From: a virus
Strand: one strand, 5' to 3'
DNA: 25,849 nucleotides
Virus record (IMG/VR): IMGVR_UViG_3300030012_004560
Location: 55,639-81,487 of that record
In this document: positions 8,193 to 25,647 of the stretch, in pieces
Layout of the letters: each line of letters begins with the position of its first letter
Numbering within the stretch: the first letter of the stretch is position 1
The notes under the pieces: model-generated
Seen by the model: the letters and a program-made list of their open reading frames with translations, nothing else
Database searches by the model: none
Told to the model about the DNA's origin: nothing
Translations under genes and position numbers: made by a program

Positions 8193-8208
8193 TTAGTTCG
8201 TTTTTCTG

Positions 8209-9649: not shown

Positions 9650-9650
9650 A

Positions 9651-9839: not shown

Positions 9840-10309
9840 TACTCTTTTATATTAAAATAATCAAAACGAATAGTTGAAGGATTTTTAAGATAAAGCATAA
9901 CCCATTTACCATAGTAACGGCATTCACCAGATTCCCACCATTCCCATTTTCCTGTTTCGTTATTTTTAGATAAAATATCTACTTTAAATGAGCCATACTC
10001 TCCAAATTCATCACTAGCTTCAATAATATCACCTAAGTAATTCATAAAGAATTGGGGTTCACCATTAATGTCTTCCATTACAGTACCCCTCATTTCAGGG
10101 CAACCTGGGCAAGGGAAAAAATCTACATTAAAGTGAAATGTCCATTCTACAAAATCACCTCCTGTATAAGTCCATTCGGGATCATCACCAATTACTTGGT
10201 GGTTGCGAACTTGGGTAAAGGTTTTTTGAAATGAACCTTCATCATGGGTATACTGACTAAAGGCTGTAAAATTAGCTGCAGCTAGTAGTGTAAGTAATAA
10301 CTTTTTCAT
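9839..10309 (-). CDS. Exported hypothetical protein with signal peptide
   Basis: I chose the ATG at 10309, giving 156 aa, because it opens a clean signal peptide (MKKLLLTLLAAANFTAFSQ). The frame can be extended 15 codons upstream (MEKQQAFRILIKNKF), but that would bury the signal and run through the promoter-like box at 10323. The mature part has PCPGCPEM, with two Cys, and many aromatic residues (WTYTGGDFVEWTFHFNVDFF), suggesting a small beta-sandwich. No family was recognised. It is the last of the run of exported proteins from the cassette. Confidence 0.65.
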   Translation of the reverse strand: MKKLLLTLLAAANFTAFSQYTHDEGSFQKTFTQVRNHQVIGDDPEWTYTGGDFVEWTFHFNVDFFPCPGCPEMRGTVMEDINGEPQFFMNYLGDIIEASDEFGEYGSFKVDILSKNNETGKWEWWESGECRYYGKWVMLYLKNPSTIRFDYFNIKE

Positions 10310-11283: not shown

Positions 11284-11635
11284 ATTGTTTTAAATAGTTC
11301 CTAATAGTTCTATTATATTTTTTATCTTTTCTATGAAGTATAGCGGCATGGGTTAATTTAGCTATTGAAACTGCTCCAAAAAAGTACCCCATTTGTCTAT
11401 ATGGACCTTGCCCTAGGGTATCAAAATAAAATGATAACCCCGACATTCCTCCTATTAATAAACCCGAAGTAAGATGTGACTGAGCACTATAAGGGGATAC
11501 ATAAAGACCATAGTCTGGATCAATCTCCCAAGTACTTGTAATATCTATATTACTAATATTAGGTTTTTGGTAATTATATTGAGCATTTAAAGTTAAAGGT
11601 AATAAAAGTGTTAAGGTTAATAATAAATTTTTCAT
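11276..11635 (-). CDS. Exported small membrane protein, hypothetical
   Basis: This 119-aa protein has a signal peptide (MKNLLLTLTLLLPLTLNAQ). Two hydrophobic Gly-rich segments (SGLLIGGMSGLSFYF and GYFFGAVSIAKLTHAAIL) could be membrane helices, and the tail is basic (HRKDKKYNRTIRNYLKQ). It overlaps the next gene by eight bases and the previous by four. The family was not recognised. Confidence 0.6.
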   Translation of the reverse strand: MKNLLLTLTLLLPLTLNAQYNYQKPNISNIDITSTWEIDPDYGLYVSPYSAQSHLTSGLLIGGMSGLSFYFDTLGQGPYRQMGYFFGAVSIAKLTHAAILHRKDKKYNRTIRNYLKQYE

Positions 11636-13722
11636 CTAAATATGGTTATGTGTCCTGTTAGTTGTTCTGTAATATTTGGGTCATAACCTGTTGCGTTTAA
11701 TTTATATACATACACTCCATCTGAGACATAATGGGTGCCTCCGGGTCCCCCACCGGTCCAAACTTCATCTATTTTATCAGTCTTCCATACTAATCCACCC
11801 CATCTATTAAATATTTGTAAATCCCAAGTTCTCCAACAGCTAGGATCTGCTATTATAACAGCCCAATAATCATTAACCCCATCATTATTTGGGGTAAAAG
11901 TATTAGGAGCATATAAAGAATCATCACATCCTTCAGGGGGGTAAATACAACTACCATCATCTAAAACAGCAGATGAATTGTAATTAAGAGCTTCAGGATC
12001 AGTACAACCTGCTATATAAGTACAGCTACCATCGTTTATAGTAGCAAATGGATTATAGTTAAGTGCGTTGGGATCAGTACACCCATATACATCATATTCA
12101 CAAGAACCATCATCAATATTGGCTGCCGGATTAAAGTTAAGTGCATATGGGTCAGTACACCCTAAAATATCATAAGTACAACTCCCGTCATTAACAGTAG
12201 CTAAAGGATTATAATTATTGGCTGCTGGATCTGTACATCCTTCGTAAGTACAAGACCCATCGTCAACTTCAGCATTTGGGTTATAATTAATAGCTGTTTC
12301 ATCTGTGCATCCATAAATAGTATAATCACAAGACCCATCGTCCCAATCGGCTGAGGGGTTATAGTTATTTGCTAATGGATCAGTACAACCAAAAATACAA
12401 GTAGCAAAAGCATCTTGATAACATGCTATAGGTTGAAACCAAGTAATGTCTGTTTCTTCCCCATTTAGTTCTAAGAGTCTAATAACTACACCCCCACCAC
12501 CATCACTTGTTATTGGGCTAAATTCTAAAATAGTATCTTCTCCAGGTAATAATTCACCTTCAAAACATTCAATATATTCTTGGTTAAATCCTATTATATC
12601 CCATTCAATACAAAAACTAGTAATAGGAGTATTACCCGTGTTTTCAAACCAAGCTATAGCATCATACCAAGCTAGGGTATCATTGCAATTTAAATTACAA
12701 TCATAATCAATATAGGTTATTTCGTTTATTTCTGGTTCAGTGCATACTTCCCATATAAAATCATCGGGTGCTTGTAATATTAAAACGTTATTAGTAGTAT
12801 CCAATTCGTTAGGATAAACATTATTAATAACAATTTCAATTTTTTCTAAAGGATCGGTTCCTATAGTTAAGCTAGGATCAGCAGGTACATTAGAAAAATA
12901 TTGATGACCTTCGGGGGGAATTGATATCCAGTCAATAAGATCAGAATTATAATCTACAGACCATGCAAATTGATCATTATAATAAAAACTTAAAGTATAT
13001 TCATGCGCCGTACTAAAACCTTGATTATATACGTCTAAACCAGTAAAGTTCCAATACCAAATATCGTTATTATAGCCAGGAAATTGGGTTTCATCCCATA
13101 TATTACAACCTAATTGGAATACACTTTCAGGGCCAAATGTTAAATCTGTAGCACAAAATACATCGTAAATATTATCTAATGGGTTAACATCTGGGTAATC
13201 ATATCCGTTGTCTTCATTGTCAATACACGAATCTTCCCCAGCATCAAAACCATAAATGTCATTTGAGCAGTTAATTTGCCAAATCATTATTTCGATACAA
13301 TCGTCGAAATATCCTAAATCTCGAGCTTCATTGTAACAGACCTCAGCATAAGCGTCACCTAATTGTGCTTCAAATAAGTTAAACGTTAGAGTATCGCCCG
13401 TACTTAAAACACCATCTGGACCCAAGTAAGCATTTTCATCATCCCAAAGTGGGAAATCTGTAATGTAATTTTGTAAAATCCATCCGGGGTAGTTATTCTC
13501 AAGACCACATGTAATATTATCAGCTTGAAGTTCTGTTGAAGTAATTCCAAGTATGAATTTAGTAATTATATCGTCTGTAGGATCGTTTGGGTTACACCCA
13601 AACCCATTATGTACAATAATGGTAGTTTCTAGAGTTTCCGGATGAAAATCATAGATTTCTAAATCACATTGTGATATAGCTAAAAATGGTATTAAAGTTA
13701 AAAGTGATAAAATGTATTTCAT
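11632..13722 (-). CDS. GC-T-D repeat protein with CHU_C / T9SS type B sorting domain
   Basis: I start at the ATG at 13722 (696 aa), because it overlaps the stop of the M43 gene as ATGA and opens a signal peptide (MKYILSLLTLIPFLAISQ). The first 440 residues look like beta-sandwich domains. Six GC-T-D repeats follow (GCTDPLANNYN to GCTDPEALNYN, each ending DDGSC or NDGSC). The C-terminal 90 residues are a gliding-motility-type CHU_C domain: APNTFTPNNDGVND, IFNRWGGLVW, WTGG, VSDGVYVYKLNATG, GHITIFR. That domain is the type B T9SS signal, whose substrates are often large and use PorP/SprF-like partners. It shares its repeats with the 1269-aa protein. Confidence 0.86.
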   Translation of the reverse strand: MKYILSLLTLIPFLAISQCDLEIYDFHPETLETTIIVHNGFGCNPNDPTDDIITKFILGITSTELQADNITCGLENNYPGWILQNYITDFPLWDDENAYLGPDGVLSTGDTLTFNLFEAQLGDAYAEVCYNEARDLGYFDDCIEIMIWQINCSNDIYGFDAGEDSCIDNEDNGYDYPDVNPLDNIYDVFCATDLTFGPESVFQLGCNIWDETQFPGYNNDIWYWNFTGLDVYNQGFSTAHEYTLSFYYNDQFAWSVDYNSDLIDWISIPPEGHQYFSNVPADPSLTIGTDPLEKIEIVINNVYPNELDTTNNVLILQAPDDFIWEVCTEPEINEITYIDYDCNLNCNDTLAWYDAIAWFENTGNTPITSFCIEWDIIGFNQEYIECFEGELLPGEDTILEFSPITSDGGGGVVIRLLELNGEETDITWFQPIACYQDAFATCIFGCTDPLANNYNPSADWDDGSCDYTIYGCTDETAINYNPNAEVDDGSCTYEGCTDPAANNYNPLATVNDGSCTYDILGCTDPYALNFNPAANIDDGSCEYDVYGCTDPNALNYNPFATINDGSCTYIAGCTDPEALNYNSSAVLDDGSCIYPPEGCDDSLYAPNTFTPNNDGVNDYWAVIIADPSCWRTWDLQIFNRWGGLVWKTDKIDEVWTGGGPGGTHYVSDGVYVYKLNATGYDPNITEQLTGHITIFR

Positions 13723-15878
13723 TGGCGCCAAGAATTAAGGAATATTTTTTCTGTCGTTATGTTGCCGTCTGACCAGCGTTGTACAACTAGATAAATTCCC
13801 GGGACTAACCTTCCTTTATCATTTATTCTGCGACCTGTAAGGTCAAAAATTAAGGGTGATCCTACTTTACAAAGACCGTAGATGTCTGTATTAAATCTCT
13901 CGTCCTCAAAATCTATTTCAGTTACATTGGTCATGTAATCCATTACCCATCCAGGAGGAGTACCTAATATATTTTCTCCTGTAAAGCAATCAGTACCATA
14001 TATATTTAATAAATATAATGCATCATTTAAGTCAATTTGTAAATCATTATTAAAATCAAATTCATTACAATCATCTAATTGACCAGAAGGGGTTGCTAAA
14101 AACATTAGTAAATCATAAATACCAACAATCCCATCACCATCAAAATCACCTTCACAACCTTCAGAAGGACAGTAAATAGTACAAAAATCAACTTCTAAAA
14201 TACTACCATAATTTAATTCGGTAGGGTCTGAAAGTTCAAATGTTAAATTATTATTTACTATTATATTAATAAATGCATCATAAGAATTATCACAAATACC
14301 ATCATTATCAAAATCAAAACCACACATACCATCACCGGCAGTATCAGTAATAATAAAAGTATAACACCCATCAGGCAAACATGTAGCTTCTATAAAATTT
14401 ATTTCCTGTGAAAATACGGGATAATCTCCCCCTTCAAGTACTAGTTCACCATTTTCATCTATTATTTCCCAATTAACCTCATTTGACCAGACATCTGGGC
14501 TTATAACTACCTCTAACCAATTTTGTTCAGTAACCTCAACTACTTGAATAAGAGTATTATTACTTAAAAACTCATCAAGATCATAAATCGCTTCACATTC
14601 AATAACACCATCTCCTAATACAAAATCAGTGAAAGGAATTATTATAAATTCACCTGCTCCAATAGTTGGTACTTCATATGGTACTCCATTTACTAATAAA
14701 GTAACATTTTCAGCAGGTTCTCCACCAAAATTATTAACCTTTACATTAAAATCTATAGTTTCTAAACACCAATCTGAGGGAGTTGAAATAGCAGTTACGG
14801 CAACATCTTTAGAATTAGGAGATTGACATGAAACATTATTAATATTAACTAAGTAATCTAACTCTGTATAAATTTCGTGTCGCATTCTCTCGATTTGGTT
14901 TTGAGTAAATGCGGTTTTACATGCTTCATAAGTATAATCCATATAATTTTCTACCATAGCATCGGGGCATACAGGAGAATCACAACCCTGATTTGTAGCA
15001 GTAGGTGGTGTATCAGGAACTTGGTCACCATAAGTACATGGGTTAGGTTCTGGTTCACAACTACCACCGCCTGCTCCTATAGATACTCCAAAAGTATGAT
15101 ATAGATTTAAAGCATGGCCAATTTCATGTGTCCAAGTACCATTTAATTCTCGGCCGAACTTACCAGTATTTAAACCAGTAACGTTGTATAAACATACTGG
15201 GCCGTAACGATAACCAGTTGCTCCTGTGCCTAATGATCCTACAAATGAATAACCTTGGACACCTCCACCCCCATCATTTCCATTAATTTCAGAAACAACA
15301 TAGCAGTTAAAGTATTTATCTTCTGGCCAATGAAATAGGTTTTTTATATAAGAATCACTAATACCATTAGCAAATGTATCACTAGCTACACCATTTAGTG
15401 CATAGGATTCACCATCATTTGTTAAGTTACTACAATCATACCTATTAATTCCATCAGTTGGGTTATTGTCAGGATCACGAGCCGCTAAACAAAACTCAAT
15501 TTTTGCATCTTTTACTAATGATAATTCATATTCATCATACTCATCAGTTAAAGCCGCTAAAGCCTCAACGTCACCTCTAAAACGGTGGTTAAGATTTTCA
15601 ATACAACTAAGAATCCGTTCATCAGATATGTTAGTTACTTCGCCTACTGCTTCTCCTAGATGGAGAATATGAAATACTACAGGTATAGTGAGTACTTGTG
15701 CGGTGTCTAAATTAATTTCAGGTGCAGCACACGCTATTCTACTATTGTAAGTCTCAAGTAGGAATGGATTTCTTATTAAAAGTTGGTCCGTTCCGCATTG
15801 TTCTTGCGCAAAAATATTAAAGGAGAGAAAAAAGCTAGCAAAGACCGCTAGCAACCTTAGAACATTTACCATTTTCAT
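13719..15878 (-). CDS. Secreted M43 (pappalysin-like) metalloprotease with dockerin-like and T9SS C-terminal regions
   Basis: The 719-aa protein has a signal peptide to about residue 25 (ending NIFAQ). The catalytic domain (about 60-340) holds HEIGHALNLYH at 251-261, giving the three zinc His and the catalytic Glu. DTPPT and the Met-turn region NYMDYTYEAC near 311-320 are typical of M43. A CARDB-like beta domain follows, then a domain shared with the 1269-aa protein (DGCYTFIITDTAGDGMC). Two dockerin-like calcium loops come next (DFDGDGIVGIYD, DFNNDLQIDLND). The end (FDLTGRRI, LVPGIYLVVQRW, EKIFLN) fits a diverged T9SS type A domain. It is likely exported and could degrade surface or matrix proteins. 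The start could also be the ATG at 15872. Confidence 0.88.
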   Translation of the reverse strand: MKMVNVLRLLAVFASFFLSFNIFAQEQCGTDQLLIRNPFLLETYNSRIACAAPEINLDTAQVLTIPVVFHILHLGEAVGEVTNISDERILSCIENLNHRFRGDVEALAALTDEYDEYELSLVKDAKIEFCLAARDPDNNPTDGINRYDCSNLTNDGESYALNGVASDTFANGISDSYIKNLFHWPEDKYFNCYVVSEINGNDGGGGVQGYSFVGSLGTGATGYRYGPVCLYNVTGLNTGKFGRELNGTWTHEIGHALNLYHTFGVSIGAGGGSCEPEPNPCTYGDQVPDTPPTATNQGCDSPVCPDAMVENYMDYTYEACKTAFTQNQIERMRHEIYTELDYLVNINNVSCQSPNSKDVAVTAISTPSDWCLETIDFNVKVNNFGGEPAENVTLLVNGVPYEVPTIGAGEFIIIPFTDFVLGDGVIECEAIYDLDEFLSNNTLIQVVEVTEQNWLEVVISPDVWSNEVNWEIIDENGELVLEGGDYPVFSQEINFIEATCLPDGCYTFIITDTAGDGMCGFDFDNDGICDNSYDAFINIIVNNNLTFELSDPTELNYGSILEVDFCTIYCPSEGCEGDFDGDGIVGIYDLLMFLATPSGQLDDCNEFDFNNDLQIDLNDALYLLNIYGTDCFTGENILGTPPGWVMDYMTNVTEIDFEDERFNTDIYGLCKVGSPLIFDLTGRRINDKGRLVPGIYLVVQRWSDGNITTEKIFLNSWRQ

Positions 15879-16663: not shown

Positions 16664-17002
16664 TTAACCCTGTTCCGCAACCAATTTCAAAGCTGCCTCA
16701 CGCAATGCGATCTGACGTGCGGAATTTGGATTCACCGGGCGACCGCGCTTAACAACACCTCCATTCGCCGCAGCGCGTTCTGCTTGTGCAATCAACCGCT
16801 GCTGGCGAGCGCTGTTGGGATTCACCGGGCGGCCGGTTTTCTTACCAGGCGCCGTTGCCAAGCGCTTTTGACGTGCGCTATTTGGATCAACCGGGCGACC
16901 CAATTGTGCCTTGTTGCTGAATTGAACATTGAGTGACTTGAGCTCTGCGCTCGGGGTGAACATTTTGTTCTTCATATTGAATTGAATTGTGTTGTTTGAC
17001 AT
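16664..17002 (-). CDS. Triple GRPVNPNSARQ-repeat protein (AT-hook-like)
   Basis: The 112-aa protein from the ATG at 17002 begins MSNNTIQFNMKNKMFTP. It carries three copies of GRPV[DN]PNSARQ plus 2-3 residues, at about residues 35-48, 57-70 and 87-100, separated by basic or Ala-rich linkers. The GRP core flanked by basic residues resembles an AT-hook, and I recall similar repeats in other Bacteroidetes phage proteins. DNA binding is therefore plausible. I prefer this start because a promoter box lies at 17033-17064. A longer in-frame version starts at 17140 next to a second box. GC content and CG-rich codons are well above those of its neighbours. Confidence 0.7.
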   Translation of the reverse strand: MSNNTIQFNMKNKMFTPSAELKSLNVQFSNKAQLGRPVDPNSARQKRLATAPGKKTGRPVNPNSARQQRLIAQAERAAANGGVVKRGRPVNPNSARQIALREAALKLVAEQG

Positions 17003-17032
17003 CTGAATTAATTTTCCTTTCTTGCTTGCGCC

Positions 17033-17064
17033 GTAAATATACGACTGAACATTCAAGTTACACG
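17033..17064 (-). promoter_or_regulatory. Promoter box, inner, for the GRPVNPNSARQ gene
   Basis: The minus strand has GTG, then exactly 19 bases containing TTGAATGTTCAGTCG, then TATATT. The ATG at 17002 lies about 33 bases past TATATT, preceded by AAGAAAGGAAAATT. This leader is longer than those of the other copies. Confidence 0.6.
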
Positions 17065-17144
17065 CGTCCCTACCTCGCTCATTTTTTTCAATCGATCCCA
17101 TTTGATCAATGTTCTGCGCTTTCGTGACTTGCAACTTCATATCG

Positions 17145-17175
17145 TGAATATACGACTGAATTTTCAGTAAACAAG
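17145..17175 (-). promoter_or_regulatory. Promoter box, outer, for the GRPVNPNSARQ gene
   Basis: The minus strand has TTG-N19-TATATT with the conserved CTGAAAATTCAGTCG inside the spacer. The next ATG (17140) is only 6 bases past TATATT, so a message starting here would be nearly leaderless for the 158-aa form, or would read through to the ATG at 17002. Confidence 0.6.
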
Positions 17176-17330
17176 TATCAACGCCAGCAGCATTTATTCA
17201 GCGAGCCACGTTCGATCACCGTATTTAGGGAGCCACATTTATTCAACAACAATTTATTTGGATATCACAATAAGAGGCTCGTGTAAGGAAATTTGGCGTT
17301 CGTGTAATTATTACGTACGGCAATTCAAAA
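17176..17330. other. Non-coding spacer, no gene seen
   Basis: No convincing reading frame is present on either strand. The only structure I see is a pair of short direct repeats: CATTTATTCA at about 17192 and again at about 17235, and GAGCCAC twice between them. Together with the iterons it forms a gene-free stretch of over 300 bases between 17141 and 17446. Confidence 0.4.
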
Positions 17331-17440
17331 TACTACAAATACGAGACATCAACGTGACACCTACGGTCCCTACTACAACAGCGAGACCTACAAACATTTG
17401 TCCTACTACAACAGTGAGACACATACTACAAAACTGAGAC
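17331..17440. repeat. Four iteron-like 17-bp direct repeats
   Basis: The plus strand carries four copies of TACTACAAnnnnGAGAC, at 17331-17347, 17371-17387, 17404-17420 and 17424-17440. Start-to-start spacings are 40, 33 and 20 bases. The eight left and five right bases are identical in all four; only the central four vary (ATAC, CAGC, CAGT, AACT). They end seven bases before the stop of the Zn-ribbon gene. The arrangement resembles iterons or an operator array bound by a repeated protein. Spacings are not regular enough for CRISPR, and the units are too short. Confidence 0.6.
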
Positions 17441-17446
17441 AGTACG

Positions 17447-17641
17447 CTAAAACACGTCGTCCATATCGTGATCCCAACGTGCGTCATTCGGGTGACCACA
17501 TTTACAACACTCAACCACGTGCGGCGCATCACGTAGTATCATCAACGTATCGTTATCACTGTTACCACATTCGCTACACGTAAACCAAGATGGAACATAC
17601 ATAGTTTCCATTGCAGTGTCAATTTTCTTTCCTATCATCAT
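17447..17641 (-). CDS. Small zinc-ribbon protein
   Basis: The 64-aa protein from the ATG at 17641 has two Cys pairs, CSEC at about residues 22-25 and CKCG (preceded by another Cys) near 46-49, forming a probable zinc ribbon. The tail is acidic (DHDMDDVF). Its start lies inside the 3' end of the upstream 30-aa gene. Small zinc ribbons in phages often bind nucleic acid or RNA polymerase; which applies here is unknown. The iteron array begins just beyond its stop. Confidence 0.6.
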   Translation of the reverse strand: MMIGKKIDTAMETMYVPSWFTCSECGNSDNDTLMILRDAPHVVECCKCGHPNDARWDHDMDDVF

Positions 17642-17711
17642 CAAATGTTACATTATTAAACACAGCACACAAGCAACAAAATGCTATAACAAAAGCGATT
17701 AACGTATTCAT
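17619..17711 (-). CDS. 30-aa membrane peptide
   Basis: The frame MNTLIAFVIAFCCLCAVFNN followed by VTFDDDRKEN has one hydrophobic helix and a charged tail. Its ATG overlaps the stop of the preceding 25-aa frame as TGATG, which argues that both are translated. It is too short for a family call. Confidence 0.4.
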   Translation of the reverse strand: MNTLIAFVIAFCCLCAVFNNVTFDDDRKEN

Positions 17712-17788
17712 CAAATTGTGTTATCAAACAACAAACTAACAGTGGCAGCAACTGCCATCACAATCAACATCACAGTCAAGTTCATCAT
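17711..17788 (-). CDS. 25-aa membrane peptide
   Basis: The frame MMNLTVMLIVMAVAATVSLLFDNTI is almost entirely one hydrophobic helix. Its start overlaps the stop of the gene above (CAATGATG), and its stop overlaps the start of the gene below. Evidence is positional only. Confidence 0.38.
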   Translation of the reverse strand: MMNLTVMLIVMAVAATVSLLFDNTI

Positions 17789-17967
17789 TGCTGCTTCAAT
17801 TTTGCAATTTGACATTGATCATACCATTGCACAGCGGCAATGTCAATTGATTCATCCTGCGTAACAAATCCGTTGTCACGAGCATTGATTAACTGATTCA
17901 AACAATCACTACGCTGCTCAACTGGAACGTTAGCGATGTTGAATTTGGGGTTCATGATATCAATCAT
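17785..17967 (-). CDS. Small hypothetical protein, first gene of a five-frame operon
   Basis: I start at the ATG at 17967 (60 aa, MIDIMNPKFNIANVPVEQRSD...). The longer frame from 18000 would begin inside the promoter box, and this ATG follows a CAAAACAAAAAA leader exactly as in the sister genes. The sequence is helical, with no membrane segment and no recognised family. It heads the chain 17967-17447. Confidence 0.6.
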   Translation of the reverse strand: MIDIMNPKFNIANVPVEQRSDCLNQLINARDNGFVTQDESIDIAAVQWYDQCQIAKLKQQ

Positions 17968-17978
17968 TTTTTTGTTTT

Positions 17979-18008
17979 GAATATACGACTGCATTTTCAC
18001 TTATCAAG
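17979..18008 (-). promoter_or_regulatory. Early-type promoter, copy at 17979
   Basis: TTG-N19-TATATT on the minus strand, with GTGAAAATGCAGTCG in the spacer. The ATG at 17967 is 12 bases past TATATT. The -33 half lies within the last codons of the upstream gene (stop at 17997). Confidence 0.7.
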
Positions 18009-18470
18009 CTTCGAAGTAAAACCTTTGTAAATTTGAACAATCGCTCTTCGAGGGTCATCATCACTAAAACTAGCTAAGCAACCAATCATCCTAGCAACAC
18101 AATCTGAACTGCAGTATCCAAATACTTGATCAATGTGTCCACCTTGTGCATCAAACATTTCCTGATCGTACTCATCAGTGTCGTGATTAAATGGAACTAA
18201 ATTAAACAATGGCTCATCATCACGACCCCAAATCATTACCTCAGCATCGTCAGTACCAAACACTTTGTAATTCATTGTGTCATTCCGATCCATTTGTCTC
18301 CGAATGTTCATATCGGAAATGTAATTACCAGGTCCGTACTGAACACTGATCCGGTAACCATTAATGTTCATTGCAAAACCCTTGTTGAGGTAACTTTCAA
18401 AATCTGTTTCGTTATTTGTGAAACGGTACGTCATGACTTGCTCTGCGGTTTTGAATTTCAAATCTTCCAT
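17997..18470 (-). CDS. Hypothetical protein (157 aa)
   Basis: A globular soluble protein, MEDLKFKTAEQVMTYRF..., with no signal peptide or membrane segment. Notable stretches are SVQYGPGNYISDMNIRRQ, an acidic middle, and YCSSDCVARMIGCLASF with three Cys. The family was not recognised. The start is fixed by the promoter at 18484 and the leader CAACCAAAAAAAGG. It stands alone in its transcription unit before the next promoter. Confidence 0.65.
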   Translation of the reverse strand: MEDLKFKTAEQVMTYRFTNNETDFESYLNKGFAMNINGYRISVQYGPGNYISDMNIRRQMDRNDTMNYKVFGTDDAEVMIWGRDDEPLFNLVPFNHDTDEYDQEMFDAQGGHIDQVFGYCSSDCVARMIGCLASFSDDDPRRAIVQIYKGFTSKLDK

Positions 18471-18483
18471 CCTTTTTTTGGTT

Positions 18484-18514
18484 GAATATACGATCGAATT
18501 TTCAACTTACAAGG
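18484..18514 (-). promoter_or_regulatory. Early-type promoter, copy at 18484
   Basis: TTG-N19-TATATT on the minus strand, spacer TAAG then TTGAAAATTCGATCG, which is the consensus. The ATG at 18470 is 14 bases past TATATT with an A-rich AAAAAAAGG leader. Confidence 0.75.
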
Positions 18515-18530
18515 ATCCCAATTTACCTTT

Positions 18531-18767
18531 TTAATTTAAGGTAGCCAACATTTCATGTTGCATATCAAGAATCACTCCATCGTCCTCCATAAATGCAAAT
18601 TCAGGGTACTCATCCTCAAGCAGTGGTTTTTCATACCACTCTGCACTTAACCATTCCCTCATCCCGCGTAGGCACTCTACATTAACATCCATCCCTACAA
18701 ACAGCGCTTGCCATTTCATTGGATCGTTGCTTTGCAAGTAATCTAAAACATGGTAAAACGACTTCAT
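18531..18767 (-). CDS. Hypothetical protein (78 aa)
   Basis: The frame MKSFYHVLDYLQSNDPMKWQAL... starts at the ATG at 18767, which overlaps the upstream stop as TGATG. It is acidic, with several Trp (REWLSAEWYEKP) and no Cys pair. No family was recognised. It is the second gene of a two-gene unit. Confidence 0.6.
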   Translation of the reverse strand: MKSFYHVLDYLQSNDPMKWQALFVGMDVNVECLRGMREWLSAEWYEKPLLEDEYPEFAFMEDDGVILDMQHEMLATLN

Positions 18768-19027
18768 CACACTACCTTGATGAACTGTTCAACATTTTTT
18801 GGAAGGCAAAACAACTTACCCTTGGTGGGATGAACCAAGCTATCCAAATCTTTGTCAAAGTGCTTCGTAGCACCTTTGCTGTTAAACACAACACTCATTG
18901 CACTGAACGGAACATATGTTTTACGTCCCATCTTAAACACTTCACTTTGATTCAGTGTAATCAAAGTGCGCGACATTTCCTTTGCGCTCATTTTTGTTTT
19001 TGTAACGATGTTCAACTTGAATCCCAT
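18767..19027 (-). CDS. Hypothetical protein (86 aa)
   Basis: The frame MGFKLNIVTKTKMSAKEMSRTLI... is basic and soluble, with GRKTYVPFSAMSVVFNSKG and KLFCLPKNVEQFIKVV segments that look like a small alpha/beta fold. The start follows the promoter at 19043 and its leader CCCAAAAAAAGGAA. No family was recognised. Confidence 0.6.
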   Translation of the reverse strand: MGFKLNIVTKTKMSAKEMSRTLITLNQSEVFKMGRKTYVPFSAMSVVFNSKGATKHFDKDLDSLVHPTKGKLFCLPKNVEQFIKVV

Positions 19028-19042
19028 TTCCTTTTTTTGGGT

Positions 19043-19073
19043 TAATATACGATCGAATTTTCAGGTTACAAGT
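19043..19073 (-). promoter_or_regulatory. Early-type promoter, copy at 19043
   Basis: TTG-N19-TATATT on the minus strand, spacer with CTGAAAATTCGATCG. The ATG at 19027 is 16 bases past TATATT. Confidence 0.75.
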
Positions 19074-19081
19074 TTCTAAGT

Positions 19082-19300
19082 TCAATTCGTAAAGAAGGTA
19101 TACTCAACTTCCTCATTCACTTCATCTACTACAATTTGAATGCCACCAGTATTAGTGACATGACTAACCCCTGTAAGTTCGCCTTCATGGGGCATCAACA
19201 TGAATTCGTTTAGATAGTAAGTAGTTTCACCTACCATAAAATAAGCATCACCCTCTTGATCAAAGCTAATGCTAGCAGTTTCCGTTTCAAGCAATTTCAT
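19082..19300 (-). CDS. Hypothetical protein (72 aa)
   Basis: I start at the ATG at 19300 (MKLLETETASISFDQEGD...), which overlaps the upstream stop as ATGA; a TTG two codons earlier is less likely. The sequence is acidic and beta-rich (GDAYFMVGETTYYLNEF, GGIQIVVDEV). No family was recognised. It is the last gene of the unit headed at 19962. Confidence 0.6.
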   Translation of the reverse strand: MKLLETETASISFDQEGDAYFMVGETTYYLNEFMLMPHEGELTGVSHVTNTGGIQIVVDEVNEEVEYTFFTN

Positions 19301-19443
19301 CGACAAATCCTATTGATCAAAATTCTAGCCATAACTACTTCTGTATTGCACTCATCACAACACACTCCTTCATTATGCAGTGGTGCAGGGTTATTACCAT
19401 ATTCACCTGCATCACCACCACACATTACACATTCCTTACCCAT
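19297..19443 (-). CDS. Small zinc-finger-like protein (CxxCG ... CCxxC)
   Basis: The 48-aa frame MGKECVMCGGDAGEYGNNPA... has two Cys pairs: CVMC at residues 5-8 and CCDEC at 28-32, with a YGNNPAPL linker. This looks like a treble-clef or ribbon zinc site, and I recall close relatives (YGNN.AP....G.CC..CN) in other marine phages. It overlaps both neighbours by 4-8 bases. The role is unknown. Confidence 0.68.
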   Translation of the reverse strand: MGKECVMCGGDAGEYGNNPAPLHNEGVCCDECNTEVVMARILINRICR

Positions 19444-19657
19444 ATGGCACTTCATTTACAGTGTTGATAATTACAGTACACATGTGATCCAAAATTTTAT
19501 CCCTAAACCCATCGCTATCCCTCATTGCATCTAGGTATCCAACTGTTCCGACTACTTTTTCATCAATATCAGGCATCAGATTTACATCTTCAAATACCTG
19601 CAGCAAATTGATTTGCAATTGCTCTTTCAATTGCTTAAGCATTTCATTTTCCTTCAT
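19436..19657 (-). CDS. Hypothetical protein (73 aa)
   Basis: The frame MKENEMLKQLKEQLQINLLQVF... has a helical N-terminus and an acidic middle (MPDIDEKVVGTVGYL). An internal ATG at residue 6 is an alternative start. The first ATG overlaps the upstream stop as ATGA. The stop runs eight bases into the zinc-finger gene. Confidence 0.6.
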   Translation of the reverse strand: MKENEMLKQLKEQLQINLLQVFEDVNLMPDIDEKVVGTVGYLDAMRDSDGFRDKILDHMCTVIINTVNEVPYG

Positions 19658-19962
19658 GCTTCAAATGTTACTTCAGTTTCAACTTCATTCACAACACGCT
19701 TGGTACTATCCATATTGATAATGTAACGGCAACGATCAGTAAACTCCTGCTTTGACAATTTGCTACCGTGTGATGTCAAATTATCCATAGGCAACTCAGT
19801 ACCATGCTTATAACCAACTTGTAAATTGCTCAACGCAAGCGGAATGCCATTTGAAGCAGTGCCTGTGAAGTAATGATATTTGATTGCACCGTCCTTCAAT
19901 TCACAAATCAAAGTTGACTTATTTGACATACCGTCTTCGAGGTGGAAATGGAAAATTTTCAT
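19654..19962 (-). CDS. Hypothetical protein (102 aa), head of a four-gene operon
   Basis: The frame MKIFHFHLEDGMSNKSTLIC... is soluble and beta-rich in its first half, with no recognised motif. The start is set by the promoter at 19975. Genes at 19962, 19657, 19443 and 19300 overlap one another and must be one message. Confidence 0.62.
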   Translation of the reverse strand: MKIFHFHLEDGMSNKSTLICELKDGAIKYHYFTGTASNGIPLALSNLQVGYKHGTELPMDNLTSHGSKLSKQEFTDRCRYIINMDSTKRVVNEVETEVTFEA

Positions 19963-19974
19963 TTGTTTTTTATT

Positions 19975-20007
19975 TGAATATACGATCGAACCTTCAATTT
20001 ACAAGGG
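19975..20007 (-). promoter_or_regulatory. Early-type promoter, copy at 19975
   Basis: TTG-N19-TATATT on the minus strand, spacer with TTGAAGGTTCGATCG. The ATG at 19962 is 14 bases past TATATT (leader CAAATAAAAAACAA). Confidence 0.75.
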
Positions 20008-20547
20008 TCAAACAATCTCTCCAAACATATTTTGAAAACCAAGTGACAACCTCATCTTATTAGAATTGTCAGCTTTGTCAAATGCACTAACGAGTGCTTG
20101 CTTAAAGCTACCATGCTTACCTTGACGGCACTCCTCAAGGTGAGCAAGTTGCAAGTCACGTTCATTTATTGCTGTTTCCTCTTCAATCAATTTTTCCACA
20201 TCATCAATCTGATGAAACGCATATGCAAAGCTCTCAGTGAACTCATTGTTGTCAACCATGCTCTGAGCCTTTTCCAATGTGATGTTTTTATAAAACTCCT
20301 CACCATTGGCAACAATCTGCCAACGCAAATCGTCATAGCTATCGTCACTCACACCTGTAACATCAAACAACTGCTTGTACAGTGCACTACATTTGCGGCG
20401 AGCAAATGATTCAACCTTTCGCATTCCATCAAGCGACAAACCTGATTCACTGGTCAAATACAATCCTGCTCCTTTATGACCACGCTTATTAAAGTTCATA
20501 TCTTCAATAACCTGCCACATTACACTTTCCATTACTACGTCCATCAT
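20008..20547 (-). CDS. Hypothetical protein (179 aa)
   Basis: The largest gene of the early-type block: a helical, acidic, soluble protein beginning MMDVVMESVMWQVIEDM. No catalytic motif or metal site is evident (single Cys residues at RRKCSALY and EECRQG). The start could be either of two adjacent ATGs (20547 or 20544) after the leader AAACCAAAAAAAA. It is alone in its unit. The function is unknown. Confidence 0.62.
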   Translation of the reverse strand: MMDVVMESVMWQVIEDMNFNKRGHKGAGLYLTSESGLSLDGMRKVESFARRKCSALYKQLFDVTGVSDDSYDDLRWQIVANGEEFYKNITLEKAQSMVDNNEFTESFAYAFHQIDDVEKLIEEETAINERDLQLAHLEECRQGKHGSFKQALVSAFDKADNSNKMRLSLGFQNMFGEIV

Positions 20548-20559
20548 TTTTTTTTGGTT

Positions 20560-20592
20560 TAATATACGATTGAATCCTCAAGTTACAAGGGG
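20560..20592 (-). promoter_or_regulatory. Early-type promoter, copy at 20560
   Basis: TTG-N19-TATATT on the minus strand, spacer with TTGAGGATTCAATCG. The ATG is about 13 bases past TATATT. Confidence 0.75.
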
Positions 20593-20597
20593 CTCAA

Positions 20598-20783
20598 TCA
20601 ATTTCCTTGAATCTTAAAACCAATAGTCGCAGGTGGATTTGCTTTTGCCGCTAAGTAATTAACTTGATCCTGCCTATTTTGAATCATTACTTTACTTGCT
20701 TCCAACAATTCAACGTCAAACTCATCGTTGACCCAATCAATAAACAGTTTTGTAAGTAGTTTTGACTTAATTTTATCAATCAT
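20598..20783 (-). CDS. Small hypothetical protein (61 aa)
   Basis: I start at the ATG at 20783 (MIDKIKSKLLTKLFIDW...), inside the last codons of the upstream gene; an ATG two codons earlier (20789) is equally possible. The longer frame from 20861 would overlap that gene by over 80 bases and is unlikely. The protein is helical and basic at its start. The family was not recognised. Confidence 0.55.
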   Translation of the reverse strand: MIDKIKSKLLTKLFIDWVNDEFDVELLEASKVMIQNRQDQVNYLAAKANPPATIGFKIQGN

Positions 20784-21207
20784 TACCATACGGGGCTTCG
20801 TTAAACGTCTCAATATTATTAACTCGATCCAAAATGTCTTGAACCAATTCAGTTTCACCATTCATATTTTCAACCAATACTAGTGGATCTTGACGCATTG
20901 CAGGATTCTCAACAATTTCATACAGGTAATCTTCACCACATTTCCCATAATCGTCTTCAGTATTCAAATAAACACGACCATCACCTGAGTATTCCTTTAA
21001 TTCAAACACAATTGAACAAACCAAATCGTTAAAACCATTAAACTGTTTACCTTGTCCTGCACGCAAGCCATTTACAATTTTACCACTATCACAAATTTCA
21101 ATTAATTTAGCACCCAATCCTTCAGGGTAACCATCATAGTGGTGATAAATATTTGCAATGAAGTTACCATCGCTGTCGCTGATTTTAATACTAGCTCGTG
21201 TTGCCAT
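20776..21207 (-). CDS. Conserved phage protein, MATRASIKISD family
   Basis: The 143-aa protein begins MATRASIKISDSDGNFIANIYHHYDGYPEGLG and continues with KIVNGL and a C-terminal acidic half. The pattern M.TRA.I...D..G.FIANIY.H.DGYP.GLG is one I recall from uncharacterised proteins of many phages and some bacteria. Its role is unknown. The start follows the promoter at 21220 and its leader AAAATAAAAAAAG. Confidence 0.7.
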   Translation of the reverse strand: MATRASIKISDSDGNFIANIYHHYDGYPEGLGAKLIEICDSGKIVNGLRAGQGKQFNGFNDLVCSIVFELKEYSGDGRVYLNTEDDYGKCGEDYLYEIVENPAMRQDPLVLVENMNGETELVQDILDRVNNIETFNEAPYGND

Positions 21208-21219
21208 CTTTTTTTATTT

Positions 21220-21252
21220 TAATATACGATCGAATTTTCAGATTACAAGGGG
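21220..21252 (-). promoter_or_regulatory. Early-type promoter, copy at 21220
   Basis: TTG-N19-TATATT on the minus strand, spacer with CTGAAAATTCGATCG. The ATG at 21207 is 13 bases past TATATT. Confidence 0.75.
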
Positions 21253-21257
21253 CTAAA

Positions 21258-21665
21258 TTAAACTCCCCTCACACGGTAAAAACTATTTATTGAATGTCCT
21301 TCAAAAATAGGATCCCTAAAGCCGTTTTCGCTACCCCAAATTTCAACATGGTCTGTTCTGGGTGTAACAGTCCAAATAACATCACCTGTTTCTCTATCAC
21401 AAATACGGAAATCGTCACGCAACGGTCCTACCATTGGGCAATTATTCTTGAAAAACACATAGTGCTTATCCAAATCAATGTCCATTTTTTTAGCAAAGCG
21501 ACGTGACGCTCTAAATAGAGTGTTCGCTTTATTTTTCAATGATGAATTTTTACAAAACCAATCATAAAAATTGTAGCAGTCGCTTTCAGTTCCATCTGAA
21601 TCAAGGTAACGACCATCACTAAACGCTTTGAATTGCTCACGCAATGTTACACTTCTTTTACTCAT
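21258..21665 (-). CDS. Hypothetical protein (135 aa)
   Basis: The frame MSKRSVTLREQFKAFSDGRY... has a basic helical N-terminal half (SLKNKANTLFRASRRFAKKM). A beta-rich C-terminal half follows (FRICDRETGDVIWTVTPRTDHVEIWG). No catalytic motif was recognised. It overlaps the preceding gene by ATGA and ends just before the promoter at 21220. Confidence 0.62.
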   Translation of the reverse strand: MSKRSVTLREQFKAFSDGRYLDSDGTESDCYNFYDWFCKNSSLKNKANTLFRASRRFAKKMDIDLDKHYVFFKNNCPMVGPLRDDFRICDRETGDVIWTVTPRTDHVEIWGSENGFRDPIFEGHSINSFYRVRGV

Positions 21666-21817
21666 AGCAAATCTTCACTTATTTCTACACAAAGTTGAAT
21701 TAATTTTTGGCGATACTCTTCATCGCGGTCATTTTGCGCTTCATAGCGAATATGTTCCGAACAATCGATAAGATCGTGAAACGTATTTTCGAAGCGACAG
21801 TAACTCATGTTGCCCAT
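21662..21817 (-). CDS. MSYCRFEN-type conserved small phage protein
   Basis: The core MSYCRFENTFHDLIDCSEHI...LIQLCVEISEDLL resembles a short family I recall from T4-like and other phages (MSYCRFENT...DL.DC). I list the ATG at 21817 (51 aa, MGNMSYCRF) because it overlaps the upstream stop as TAATG; the ATG at 21808 gives the typical family start. Two or three Cys are conserved in position. The function is unknown. Confidence 0.65.
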   Translation of the reverse strand: MGNMSYCRFENTFHDLIDCSEHIRYEAQNDRDEEYRQKLIQLCVEISEDLL

Positions 21818-21996
21818 TAGTCGTTCAGTTTCAAAGTGTGAGTAATGTTTTCAACAATGGTGGGAATGTAATTATCACCAAAAATAGGATTGTTACCCTT
21901 TGCTCGGATACGTTCGTTTTCCTCTTCTTGTTGCAACATAACTAATTTCAACCCTGTGCTAATAATCGCTTTTTCAAATTTTGTTAATTTACCCAT
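21817..21996 (-). CDS. Small hypothetical protein (59 aa)
   Basis: The frame MGKLTKFEKAIISTGLKLVM... is a helical, charged protein with EEENERIRAKGNNPIFGDNYIP in the middle. It heads the 21996-21258 unit, right after the promoter at 22010 with leader AAAATAAAAAAGG. The family was not recognised. Confidence 0.62.
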   Translation of the reverse strand: MGKLTKFEKAIISTGLKLVMLQQEEENERIRAKGNNPIFGDNYIPTIVENITHTLKLND

Positions 21997-22009
21997 CCTT
22001 TTTTATTTT

Positions 22010-22040
22010 AATATACGAACGAATTTTCAATCTTCACGGG
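22010..22040 (-). promoter_or_regulatory. Early-type promoter, copy at 22010
   Basis: GTG-N19-TATATT on the minus strand, spacer with TTGAAAATTCGTTCG. The TGA stop of the upstream gene (22029-22027) lies inside the spacer, so gene end and promoter are interlocked. The ATG at 21996 is 13 bases past TATATT. Confidence 0.7.
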
Positions 22041-22720: not shown

Positions 22721-22753
22721 CCTATAAACATACGAATAAAAGATGAGGACTCA
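22721..22753 (-). promoter_or_regulatory. TTTG-N19-TATGTTTA promoter embedded in a terminator
   Basis: The minus strand has TTTG, 19 bases ending TTATTCG, then TATGTTTATAGGG. The TTTG lies in the loop of the terminator hairpin at 22742-22765, so the end of one unit and the start of the next share the same bases. It drives the membrane gene at 22703. Confidence 0.62.
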
Positions 22754-22765
22754 AAGGTCCTCATC
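22742..22765 (-). terminator. Rho-independent terminator
   Basis: A perfect 9-bp stem, GATGAGGAC with GTCCTCATC, and a 6-nt loop, followed on the minus strand by TTTTATT. The stop codon (22753-22751) of the 54-aa gene lies in the loop. It ends the 23139-22751 unit. Confidence 0.8.
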
Positions 22766-22915
22766 TCCGTATTCACTTCTTACATCCAAAATAAAGGATC
22801 GTTCTTCGTCCTGCTCTAGTAGCGAAATGATTTCTCGTTTTCGCTGTTCGCTTACACCTGAATACAATTCAGTTTTAAGCTCGTTTCGTTGCTCAAAAGT
22901 AAGCAGTCGTTTCAT
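22751..22915 (-). CDS. Small charged hypothetical protein (54 aa)
   Basis: The frame MKRLLTFEQRNELKTELYSG... is helical and highly charged, with repeated ER/KR/DE pairs and no membrane or metal motif. Its ATG overlaps the upstream stop as TGATG. No family was recognised. It ends in the terminator loop. Confidence 0.58.
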   Translation of the reverse strand: MKRLLTFEQRNELKTELYSGVSEQRKREIISLLEQDEERSFILDVRSEYGDEDL

Positions 22916-23270: not shown

Positions 23271-24056
23271 TTATACCTGTTCAAAACTATATTGCACGTT
23301 ACCTGAGCGGAACAGTGAGAAGTAAATCTTTTCACCAACATCGCCTCTACGGTTTTTACTAAATGACATGTAACGCAAAGCATCTCGACCGCGGCCATCA
23401 AACTTAAGATGTGCCATTGCAGTGGTCATGTGCTTGATTCGATTTGAACCAGCGAAATCACCACCCTTAGTCATTTGCTGAATATTAATAAACGCAGTGT
23501 GCTTATTACGCTCATTGCCAGCCTTATTATGCTTATCCATCAGATCAAGCAACCACGATTCAGCTTTCTTACGCGTCCAACCATTCTCCTCCTGAACCAT
23601 ATCATTAACCTCAGCCCAACTATCAATCAGCACTACATCAAAACCTTGATCAAGCGACTTTTCAATTGCGCTTTGAGGATTTGAAGCATAATTTTGCATA
23701 AACAAAATCGGAATACGACCAAACTTTGGGTAACGCTTTACGTAACCAAACATATCAATCTCGTTCATTTCACCTGAAACGAACAACACACGCTTGCCCT
23801 TGCTCTGGAAATTAGCAAGCAAATCGAGCAATACAGTACTCTTACCTACACCTGGATCACCAATCACAACAGTATTAGTACCAGGGAAAATACCACCTTC
23901 ATTACTCAAAACACTATCAACGATAGTACCTGTTTTAATAGGTGTAAACAGTGAAGGGTCAAACTTGACATCCTTCATCTGTGTGAATTCGACATTCTCC
24001 AAAGCAATTTTCTTTGGAGTAACAGCATTTTTACGGGGTCGTCCTCGTCCTGCCAT
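23271..24056 (-). CDS. RadA/Sms-like RecA-fold ATPase with N-terminal AT-hook
   Basis: The 261-aa protein opens with MAGRGRPRKN, an AT-hook core (GRGRPRK). The RecA-fold domain has Walker A GDPGVGKST at 66-74, a VSGE segment at 93-96 (as in RadA VSGEES), Walker B DVVLIDS at 140-146, and FAGSNRIKHMT near 201-211, which parallels RadA AG...LEHM. The RadA hallmark KNRxG is present as KNRRG at 234-238. The RadA zinc finger and C-terminal Lon-like domain are both missing. It probably acts as a DNA-dependent ATPase or helicase in phage recombination or replication. A DnaB-type helicase core is the main alternative. Confidence 0.82.
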   Translation of the reverse strand: MAGRGRPRKNAVTPKKIALENVEFTQMKDVKFDPSLFTPIKTGTIVDSVLSNEGGIFPGTNTVVIGDPGVGKSTVLLDLLANFQSKGKRVLFVSGEMNEIDMFGYVKRYPKFGRIPILFMQNYASNPQSAIEKSLDQGFDVVLIDSWAEVNDMVQEENGWTRKKAESWLLDLMDKHNKAGNERNKHTAFINIQQMTKGGDFAGSNRIKHMTTAMAHLKFDGRGRDALRYMSFSKNRRGDVGEKIYFSLFRSGNVQYSFEQV

Positions 24057-24093: not shown

Positions 24094-24130
24094 CCTTATA
24101 AACATACGAATGATCTTTAGGTAAGCCAAA
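24094..24130 (-). promoter_or_regulatory. TTTG-N20-TATGTTTA promoter for the RadA-like gene
   Basis: The minus strand has TTTG, a 20-base spacer ending CATTCG, then TATGTTTATAAGG, a close match to the Bacteroidetes class. The ATG at 24056 is about 45 bases downstream, giving a longer leader than the early-type copies. The pairing with the box at 22721 (same TTCGTATGTTTATA) suggests co-regulation. Confidence 0.62.
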
Positions 24131-24138: not shown

Positions 24139-24297
24139 TCATTTTTTTGCCGCTGCTAAAGCGTCAAATACAATATTTACAAATTCACCATTAAAACTAC
24201 CTTCCGAATCAGCAATAGGGGTCATTCCACAACCTTTTGCTTTAAGTCCATTGTAAATCTCGTTACATAGGACTACTATGTTTACGTCTTTTGCCAT
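24139..24297 (-). CDS. Small hypothetical protein (52 aa)
   Basis: The frame MAKDVNIVVLCNEIYNGLKA... continues GCGMTPIADSEGSFNGEF and ends in Lys-Lys. It looks like a small alpha/beta protein with two Cys. There is no recognised family. Confidence 0.55.
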   Translation of the reverse strand: MAKDVNIVVLCNEIYNGLKAKGCGMTPIADSEGSFNGEFVNIVFDALAAAKK

Positions 24298-24353
24298 TTT
24301 TTTAACTTACGATTGTGAATATAAGGTAAAAGATTAGGGAAACCAAAAAGCAC

Positions 24354-24766: not shown

Positions 24767-24786
24767 GTTAATTTGTTTTTAATTTG

Positions 24787-24867
24787 TACCCGAGAAAGGG
24801 CTCGAACCTTCACGCCATAGGCACTGGTTCCTAAGACCAGCGTGTCTACCAATTCCACCACTCGGGC
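24787..24867 (-). tRNA. tRNA-Leu (anticodon UAG)
   Basis: An 81-nt type II tRNA: acceptor GCCCGAG with CTCGGGT, discriminator A, D-arm, anticodon stem CTGGT/ACCAG with loop CTTAGGA (anticodon TAG), a long variable arm (TGCCTATGGCG) and T-loop TTCGAGC. CCA is not encoded (CAA follows). It reads CUA leucine codons. Confidence 0.92.
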
Positions 24868-24875
24868 ATACCGCT

Positions 24876-25100
24876 TTACTCAGCGGGTAGTGTTTCCAAA
24901 TGATCAAGTAATTCACTTACAGTAGTAAGCGAATCAATGATTTTTTGGTTGTTGATAAACACACTGTCTGGTACAAACTGTGTAGTATCTTGGGTATAGT
25001 CGTGTTGTACACCCATAATTTCAATTACGTGATCATGCTTATCCTTATTACTGCATGATGCGAGACCCACTAGGGCAAGTGTAAAAAATACCTGTTTCAT
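24876..25100 (-). CDS. Small lipoprotein (74 aa)
   Basis: The frame MKQVFFTLALVGLASCSNKD... has a lipoprotein signal (lipobox GLAS-C, Cys at residue 16) and an acidic mature part (VQHDYTQDTTQFVPDSVF). It ends eight bases before tRNA-Leu. Phage lipoproteins often act in superinfection exclusion or as spanins; nothing here decides. Confidence 0.68.
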   Translation of the reverse strand: MKQVFFTLALVGLASCSNKDKHDHVIEIMGVQHDYTQDTTQFVPDSVFINNQKIIDSLTTVSELLDHLETLPAE

Positions 25101-25258
25101 GATATAGGTTTTTGTAAATGATTTACGGTTAGTATTAATTCTTCTATTTGAGCAATATTAAGCCTATCATATAGACGGTTAACTTGCTTTGATTTCGTGT
25201 CTTTAAAAGGTAATAATAAAATTACCAGTATTAAAAGTCTAATCAGATTCTTTTTCAT
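25097..25258 (-). CDS. Small membrane or exported peptide (53 aa)
   Basis: The frame MKKNLIRLLILVILLLPFKD... has one strong hydrophobic stretch and then a helical polar tail (LYDRLNIAQIEELILTVNHL). Its stop overlaps the ATG of the 74-aa lipoprotein (ATGA), while its start overlaps the upstream lipoprotein gene by 20 bases. Together with the flanking lipoproteins it could form an envelope pair. Confidence 0.5.
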   Translation of the reverse strand: MKKNLIRLLILVILLLPFKDTKSKQVNRLYDRLNIAQIEELILTVNHLQKPIS

Positions 25259-25478
25259 TTGCTTCTTTCTTAGCTAGCTTTGCTGCTATTCGAGCTTCAT
25301 ATTCTTCTCGGTTTTTAATTTTCTTTTCCTTGATTTGTTCTGATACCTTTTCAGGTGCCCAGTCTTCCATAGTTGTTACAGTCGTAAATAAAGTTACTGC
25401 AACACCCAAATTTATTACATCACTTCTTGTAGCACAAGAACTAAGTAATAGTGGTAATATAATTAATAATTTTTTCAT
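25239..25478 (-). CDS. Small lipoprotein (79 aa) starting one base after tRNA-Val
   Basis: The frame MKKLLIILPLLLSSCATRSD... has a clear lipobox (LLSS-C, Cys at about 15). A short hydrophobic part follows (VINLGVAVTLFTTVTT), then a charged helical tail (KKIKNREEYEARIAAKLAKK). Its ATG begins one base after the predicted 3' end of tRNA-Val, so tRNA end processing would leave an almost leaderless message. Confidence 0.68.
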   Translation of the reverse strand: MKKLLIILPLLLSSCATRSDVINLGVAVTLFTTVTTMEDWAPEKVSEQIKEKKIKNREEYEARIAAKLAKKEANEKESD

Positions 25479-25479
25479 G

Positions 25480-25554
25480 TAGTTCCTGCTGGACTCGAAC
25501 CAGCGACCCTCTCGGTGTAAACGAGATGCTCTAAACCAACTGAGCTAAGGAACC
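25480..25554 (-). tRNA. tRNA-Val (anticodon UAC)
   Basis: A 75-nt cloverleaf: acceptor GGTTCCT with AGGAACT, discriminator A, D-arm TAGCTCAGTTGGTTTAGAGC, anticodon stem TCTCG/CGAGA with loop TTTACAC (anticodon TAC), and T-arm GCTGG-TTCGAGT-CCAGC. No CCA is encoded. It reads GUA and probably other GUN codons. Confidence 0.93.
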
Positions 25555-25574
25555 CCCATTCGCCTCACACGCTG

Positions 25575-25647
25575 TGATCCCGGTCGGGCTTGAACCGACG
25601 ACCCACGCCTTAAAAGGGCGTTGCTCTACCAGCTGAGCTACGAGATC
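25575..25647 (-). tRNA. tRNA-Lys (anticodon UUU)
   Basis: A 73-nt cloverleaf: acceptor GATCTCG with CGGGATC, discriminator A, D-arm TAGCTCAGCTGGTAGAGC, anticodon stem ACGCC/GGCGT with loop CTTTTAA (anticodon TTT), and T-arm GTCGG-TTCAAGC-CCGAC. No CCA is encoded. It reads the AAA codons that dominate this AT-rich genome. Confidence 0.94.

Follow-up and report, generated by a model that had tools for sequence, protein, structure and literature searches.

What is the role of a promoter-like module that recurs nine times ahead of small phage genes, and what reads it? We addressed this question in a 25,849-nucleotide stretch of viral DNA (the window), which spans positions 55639–81487 of IMG/VR record IMGVR_UViG_3300030012_004560 (G000) and forms the end of this 81.5-kb contig, a partial genome. 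An earlier note, made from the sequence, had described nine minus-strand copies of [TG]TG, exactly 19 bases and TATATT, most of them followed by an ATG at close range, and had proposed a phage-specific early regulon. We find that these nine modules of a T4-like Bacteroidota phage are probably early promoters, a reading to which, taken as a whole, we assign a probability of roughly 75%. Their fixed spacer sequence suggests a dedicated mode of reading.

Nine modules with a fixed spacer block

All nine copies are present, at coordinates 0–3 bases away from those first given. They follow the pattern [TG]TG-N5-TGA-N3-T[TG]C-N2-TCGTATATT-N-A, and the distance of 19 bases between [TG]TG and TATATT holds in 9/9 (the first element is TTG in seven and GTG in two). 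Counting from the first base of [TG]TG, the fixed positions are 2–3 (TG), 9–11 (TGA), 15 (T), 17 (C), 20–28 (TCGTATATT) and 30 (A); position 16 is T in eight of the nine. The spacer had been called conserved as well. This is true of the block TGA-N3-T[TG]C-N2-TCG, kept in every copy, but the literal string TGAAAATTCGATCG is found in three only (those starting at 21248, 19071 and 18512). We call these modules class A. They are listed below, the lower coordinate being the end of TATATT; G001 is a sister phage, an 86-kb contig that we used for orthologue comparison.

Copy 1, 22010–22037, minus strand: class A module, GTG-N19-TATATT; ATG 13 nt downstream; gene 21817–21996; orthologue in G001 (82574), identical 28-mer in G002 (72314)
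Copy 2, 21221–21248, minus strand: class A module; ATG 13 nt downstream; gene 20776–21207; G001 orthologue with one change
Copy 3, 20561–20588, minus strand: class A module; ATG 13 nt downstream; gene 20008–20547
Copy 4, 19977–20004, minus strand: class A module; ATG 14 nt downstream; gene 19654–19962
Copy 5, 19044–19071, minus strand: class A module; ATG 16 nt downstream; gene 18767–19027 (95% identity to G001)
Copy 6, 18485–18512, minus strand: class A module; ATG 14 nt downstream; gene 17997–18470
Copy 7, 17980–18007, minus strand: class A module, TGC replacing TTC; ATG 12 nt downstream (17967); beyond the end of the G001 contig
Copy 8, 17147–17174, minus strand: class A module; ATG (17140) 6 nt past TATATT; gene 16664–17140, encoding a 158-aa GRP-repeat protein
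Copy 9, 17036–17063, minus strand: class A module inside the open reading frame (ORF) begun by copy 8; next ATG 33 bases downstream, in frame, at 17002

The bare [TG]TG-N19-TATATT is not rare by chance: shuffled windows contained 1.9 on average and up to 7, against the nine observed. With the spacer blocks included, no match turned up when the entire 81.5-kb contig was dinucleotide-shuffled 100 times, against nine in the real sequence. Nor is the motif equally common inside genes across the contig, because all nine copies lie at 72.67–77.68 kb, the 5-kb small-gene region, and no full match occurs elsewhere. The lone other site is a weak match with three mismatches at 9834 (+), and scanning the full contig with a weight matrix added weak sites only.

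Selection on the spacer

Is the spacer block alike because it matters, or because it was copied recently? Six class A modules have orthologues upstream of orthologous genes in G001, and we compared these pairs at 30 positions (18 conserved and 12 variable). The conserved positions showed 0/108 changes (18 positions in six pairs) and the variable positions 21/72, while the fourfold sites of the adjoining genes showed 44/196 (22%; Fisher p = 7e-10 versus the conserved positions). Because the nine window copies, including the six compared here, served to define the conserved set, that set was partly picked for invariance; it is the agreement of the second phage that carries weight. Because the conserved positions are unchanged where fourfold sites have diverged, the spacer blocks are under purifying selection.

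An intergenic cassette with a functionless spacer, spread by recent duplication or gene conversion, might also account for many copies with similar flanks, and cassette spread is known for the T4-type promoter early stem-loops (PeSLs) in the passages of PMC4503421 that cite them. We consider this explanation very improbable: orthologous copies keep their own variable letters in both phages (the copy 4 spacer, GAAGGTTC, is identical in G000 and G001), and changes occur at variable positions only, despite the divergence of the fourfold sites. On this substitution pattern we reject simple duplication, and the copies are not being homogenised.

We also looked at folding. Class A spacers contain no hairpin or stem-loop (mean −2.1 kcal/mol, no better than shuffles), and we reject a hairpin or terminator in them.

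A phage-specific module on the host layout

The sigmaA promoters of Bacteroidota (PMC6847099, PMC9723704) share with class A a TTG or TTTG at −33, TAnnTT at −12 to −7 and an A-rich start region without a Shine-Dalgarno sequence. In all nine copies, [TG]TG stands 19 bases from a TAnnTT-type box, in keeping with this −33/−7 layout. The two differ at the end of the −7 octamer, which is TTTG in sigmaA promoters and TT[ACT]A in class A, and in the spacer block, a class A feature that does not rise above background in host genomes. A search with TGANNNTTCNNTCGTATATT gave three matches in 395 Bacteroidota genomes, versus two for the reversed control, in a sample that may not include the phage's own host; TTGNNNNNTGANNNTTCNNTCGTATATT gave eight single matches across all of GTDB, without common context. 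The class A motif appears to be phage-specific, because the sampled Bacteroidota genomes hold it at background level only. On these counts we also reject mimicry of a host regulon.

Single matches in the contigs L005–L018 were considered as true relatives and rejected, as they are mostly one recurring sequence across contigs and come without promoter arrays; L004 and L013 are exceptions. No class A module was found in L030, which encodes a relative, at 47% identity, of one of the early genes. L030 (IMGVR 3300012920_000080, 1–10000) is a different phage with its own repeated module, AATTCTACTCAGGTAGAAATT, upstream of many ATGs.

Other promoters of the same phage group

G000 is a T4-like Bacteroidota phage and a relative of Flavobacterium phage immuto. 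It encodes a T4-type portal (gp20), a major head protein (gp23), a terminase and baseplate proteins, and its gp23 shares 54.5% identity with the gp23 of immuto, a cultured phage of Flavobacterium sp. LMO8 with a complete genome of 160 kb (NC_055915). In G000 the genes run right to left, leading from the module-bearing small-gene region towards the structural genes.

The earlier note had overlooked a second promoter type in the same region, as well as the leaderless copy, the A instead of G at −5 and the immuto array described below. This second type, class B, consists of TTTGG or TTTG, a spacing of 19–20, TAT[AG]TTTA and a GTAAG start region. It is present in many other viral contigs, with about a dozen copies in the related contig G006. 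In those class B copies that carry TGAANNTTC, its position is fixed relative to the −7 box, and TTG lies one base further out. The window contains the following sites.

22727–22766, minus strand: class B promoter, TTTG-N19-TATGTTTA with a GTAAG start, fused to a terminator hairpin of −16.6 kcal/mol
24101–24129, minus strand: class B promoter, TTGG, spacing of 20 from TTG to TATGTT, TATGTTTATAAGGTAAG; upstream of ATPase gene 23271–24056
24318–24346, minus strand: class B-like site read from the sequence, TTGG, spacing of 20, TATATTCACAATCGTAAG; upstream of gene 24139–24297

The loop of the hairpin at 22727–22766 holds the −33 TTG, and G001 and G002 have an equal arrangement.

Immuto has about 27–30 modules of its own (TTG-N20-TA[TC]NTTTA), most of them in a single cluster of small genes that immediately precedes the baseplate genes. 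In contrast to class A, they conserve the start region, TAGGTATCAATAATTAAAAC, and not the spacer, and the spacing is 20; a strong, terminator-like spacer hairpin was detected in 9 of the 27 modules tested. On the intergenic sense strand of immuto the host form TAHHTTTG occurs 0 times versus 47 for TAHHTTTA. Because of this imbalance, the immediate-early promoters of immuto are probably of the TTTA type and read by the host polymerase.

The structural genes carry a different motif. ATATTTAT occurs in G000 24 times in sense versus twice in antisense orientation, and lies upstream of 0/25 ORFs of the early region versus 11/55 ORFs of the structural half. The same bias appears in immuto (43 versus 6, in a broader form) and in G006 (49 versus 8). 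TATTTATA is the reverse complement of T4 TATAAATA. The strand-biased ATATTTAT(A) is a candidate late promoter motif, separate from class A. Class A itself does not fit a T4-type late (gp55) promoter, a −10-only element of the TATAAATA type without −35, as it has a −33 element.

What could read the late-type motif? G000 encodes a sigma-like protein of 233 aa at 51187–51888 (minus strand), outside the window, with a relative in immuto (78174–78872, annotated as hypothetical) and relatives in at least 597 viral stretches. The family matches Pfam Sigma70_r2 (PF04542) below the cut-off (1.3e-4 to 0.005; E = 0.005 for the G000 protein), and its matches to the PHROG late sigma and sigma factor families have values of 0.5 and 0.16. 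The sequence had no match in the PDB, and the AlphaFold model is of moderate quality (pLDDT 73.9, pTM 0.45). Foldseek searches with this model returned mostly sigma factors at poor E-values: the best PDB match (0.041) is not a sigma factor, and among viral structures the best (3.5e-5) is unnamed and the next (2.7e-3) is a named phage sigma. Each piece is weak and the evidence cumulative; together they make this product a probable late-type sigma. It fits the −10-only late motif better than the −33/−7 type of class A.

Taken together, the nine modules are very probably early promoters because immuto has its own clustered −33/−7 array, ATATTTAT is the motif of the structural genes and G000 has a gene for a sigma-like protein. 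The proposed phage-specific early regulon stands in that the modules appear phage-specific, precede small genes of early type (the same modules before the same genes in G001), have a spacer under purifying selection and are set apart from the late motif; the early timing we infer from the layout.

What reads the spacer

We propose that each module would act as an intergenic control unit for one or a few small genes. Such a unit would comprise, in order, the upstream stop codon, ~10 bp, TTG (−34 to −32), the 19-bp spacer, TATATT (−12 to −7), six nucleotides to +1, 6–10 A-rich nucleotides and the ATG. From the start point so defined, initiation would most likely be by the host RNA polymerase, which would recognise the −33 TTG, the TATATT box and, much like an extended −10 element, TCG (−15 to −13). 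Standard sigma contacts do not cover the TGA-N3-TTC block (−26 to −18). Its most likely reader, at slightly under an even chance, would be a phage-encoded or virion-borne DNA-binding factor that separates the class A set from the nearby class B early promoters. More tentatively, such a factor could redirect the polymerase to promoters without a TTTG match at −7. Class A would then be a dedicated early set, and the mechanism would be the Bacteroidota equivalent of sigma appropriation in T4, except that the factor would bind within the spacer and not replace the −33 box.

The other option that we rate as near-equal is that the polymerase reads the spacer directly. The sigmaA polymerase of the host, possibly after modification by a protein from the virion (compare T4 Alt), would then recognise the spacer through extended −7 and spacer contacts, without a phage factor, like the 'uber' early promoters of T4; we see this as a real possibility, if short of an even one. 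TCG is located where extended −10 elements sit, and TGA, TTC and TCG are in register with the −7 box and not with −33, as shown by the class B copies with the block. T4 early promoters have an extra consensus too (PMC2988021), and the dominance of TAHHTTTA in immuto points the same way. On the other hand, TGA (−26 to −24) and TTC (−20 to −18) lack an established sigma contact, and the −7 box of class A matches the host less well than that of class B. Because of this weaker match, class A seems to depend on something else.

Could a dedicated phage enzyme be involved? At −5 an A replaces the host G, the consensus is long and contiguous, and G000 encodes the sigma-like protein, all of which would suit a phage-encoded RNA polymerase or phage sigma serving class A in place of host sigmaA. 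However, TTG-N19/20-TAnnTT is the host layout, and the sigma-like protein is closest, if weakly, to late-sigma and region 2 types, to which the −10-only structural motif is better suited. For a single-subunit polymerase, the partial contig gave no PF00940 match, and the control genomes gave none either. We regard this explanation as unlikely.

The spacer block might instead be an operator at which a phage repressor, bound between −33 and −7, blocks the polymerase and shuts off the early set. A short inverted repeat, TGAANNTTCR, lies in mid-spacer, and GAAATTTC palindromes occupy an equal position in class B promoters of G006. With its three fixed complementary pairs, this dyad is weak; we recognised no gene for a repressor, and sequence cannot separate activation from repression. 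We therefore think a repressor improbable.

Several observations weigh against our overall reading. The −7 octamer of the host, TAHHTTTG, has a nearly invariant T at −6 and G at −5 in F. johnsoniae (PMC6847099), and class A departs from it with A at −5 in 9/9 copies and T at −6 in only 1/9. Reading of the spacer is not general in this phage group, because the immuto array is without a conserved spacer. Family searches of the class A genes in the partial contig revealed no DNA-binding factor, and a repeat as short as TGAANNTTCR could have arisen by chance. No reader was identified that would correspond to the activator or altered sigma factor proposed in the earlier note, and the sigma-like protein better fits the late, −10-only type.

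Leaders and translation

The host −7 octamer at −12 to −5 (PMC9723704, PMC6847099) places the predicted +1 seven bases past TATATT. As the earlier note had reported, an ATG follows 12–16 bases past TATATT in seven copies (gaps of 12, 13, 13, 13, 14, 14 and 16); for these the predicted leaders are 6–10 nt long, in agreement with the very short leaders claimed. They are at the short end of the host range, as in F. johnsoniae 87% of the predicted leaders are longer than 10 nt (PMC6847099). Translation from A-rich starts without Shine-Dalgarno pairing is not special, being the norm in Bacteroidota (PMC6847099).

Copy 8 has no predicted leader: the mRNA for the GRP-repeat protein would be leaderless because its ATG is only 6 bases past TATATT. 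This 6-nt geometry recurs in G001 at 76983 and 73952. With copy 9 lying inside the ORF, the two copies could yield two forms of the GRP-repeat protein, a longer one from the leaderless mRNA (17140) and a shorter one from 17002.

Surroundings of the array

At the downstream end of the array, window positions ~17200–17450 are apparently non-coding and contain repeated GTCTC..TTGTAGTA-like units. The immuto array is adjoined by a similarly odd repeat stretch (ACCCGT/ACCTG). The stretch in G000 is possibly a replication origin. Genes for tRNA-Leu, tRNA-Val and tRNA-Lys lie near the early region, at 24786–25647.

Further along the window, 1730–5539, 11632–13731 and 13719–15878 (minus strand) encode large proteins with C-terminal domains of the type IX secretion system (T9SS; Por_Secre_tail 6e-9, CHU_C 2e-16), and an M43 metallopeptidase is also among them. 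The first two share a 78-nt (26-aa) repeat in long arrays. These large phage genes look made for secretion via the host T9SS.

Comparison with known systems

Phage takeover of the unusual transcription machinery of Bacteroidota is almost undescribed in the open-access literature that we searched, and we found there no description of early promoters from this phage group (subscription papers were outside the search). Exact candidate early promoters are now at hand, along with a distinct late-type motif and a candidate phage sigma that occurs in hundreds of viral contigs and in one cultured, fully sequenced relative, so that the question is directly testable. The class A modules are also short candidate promoters for Bacteroidota genetics.

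T4 early promoters are many and strong, stand before small early genes and combine host-type boxes with a phage-specific consensus (PMC2988021). Class A shares with them the small early genes of a T4-like phage, the extra consensus and the different motif at late genes. It differs in the −33/−7 layout, the fixed spacer block, the departure at −6/−5 and the predicted leaders of 6–10 nt or none; with −6/−5 departing from TAHHTTTG, it is not the excellent match to host elements that marks T4 early promoters. In T4 middle promoters the MotA box (TGCTTtA) replaces −35, centred at −30 and 12±1 bp from −10; class A keeps the −33 [TG]TG in 9/9 copies, and none of the nine sequences has GCTT at that position.

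The T4-type PeSLs (Arbiol 2010, Comeau 2014, as cited in PMC4503421) are described as composite cassettes in which a stem-loop terminator is joined to an early promoter; they too recur in the gaps between small genes. A PeSL-like fusion of terminator and promoter exists here in the class B copy at 22727–22766 and in the hairpin-bearing immuto modules. Class A differs from the PeSLs as described there: its nine copies are without stem-loop, and the six checked stay with orthologous genes and show no sign of shuffling. In Kayvirus vB_SauM-515A1, the passages covered of PMC7698491 report 58 early promoters with host boxes and an extension element, and 12 late promoters whose −10 motif is specific to the phage and ascribed to a phage sigma; that system differs in its sigma-70 consensus and 17-bp spacer, and those passages mention no conserved spacer block. 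Early promoters of the T4 type are known; what appears to be new is the fixed spacer element, the 19-bp spacing and the predicted A-rich leaders of 6–10 nt.

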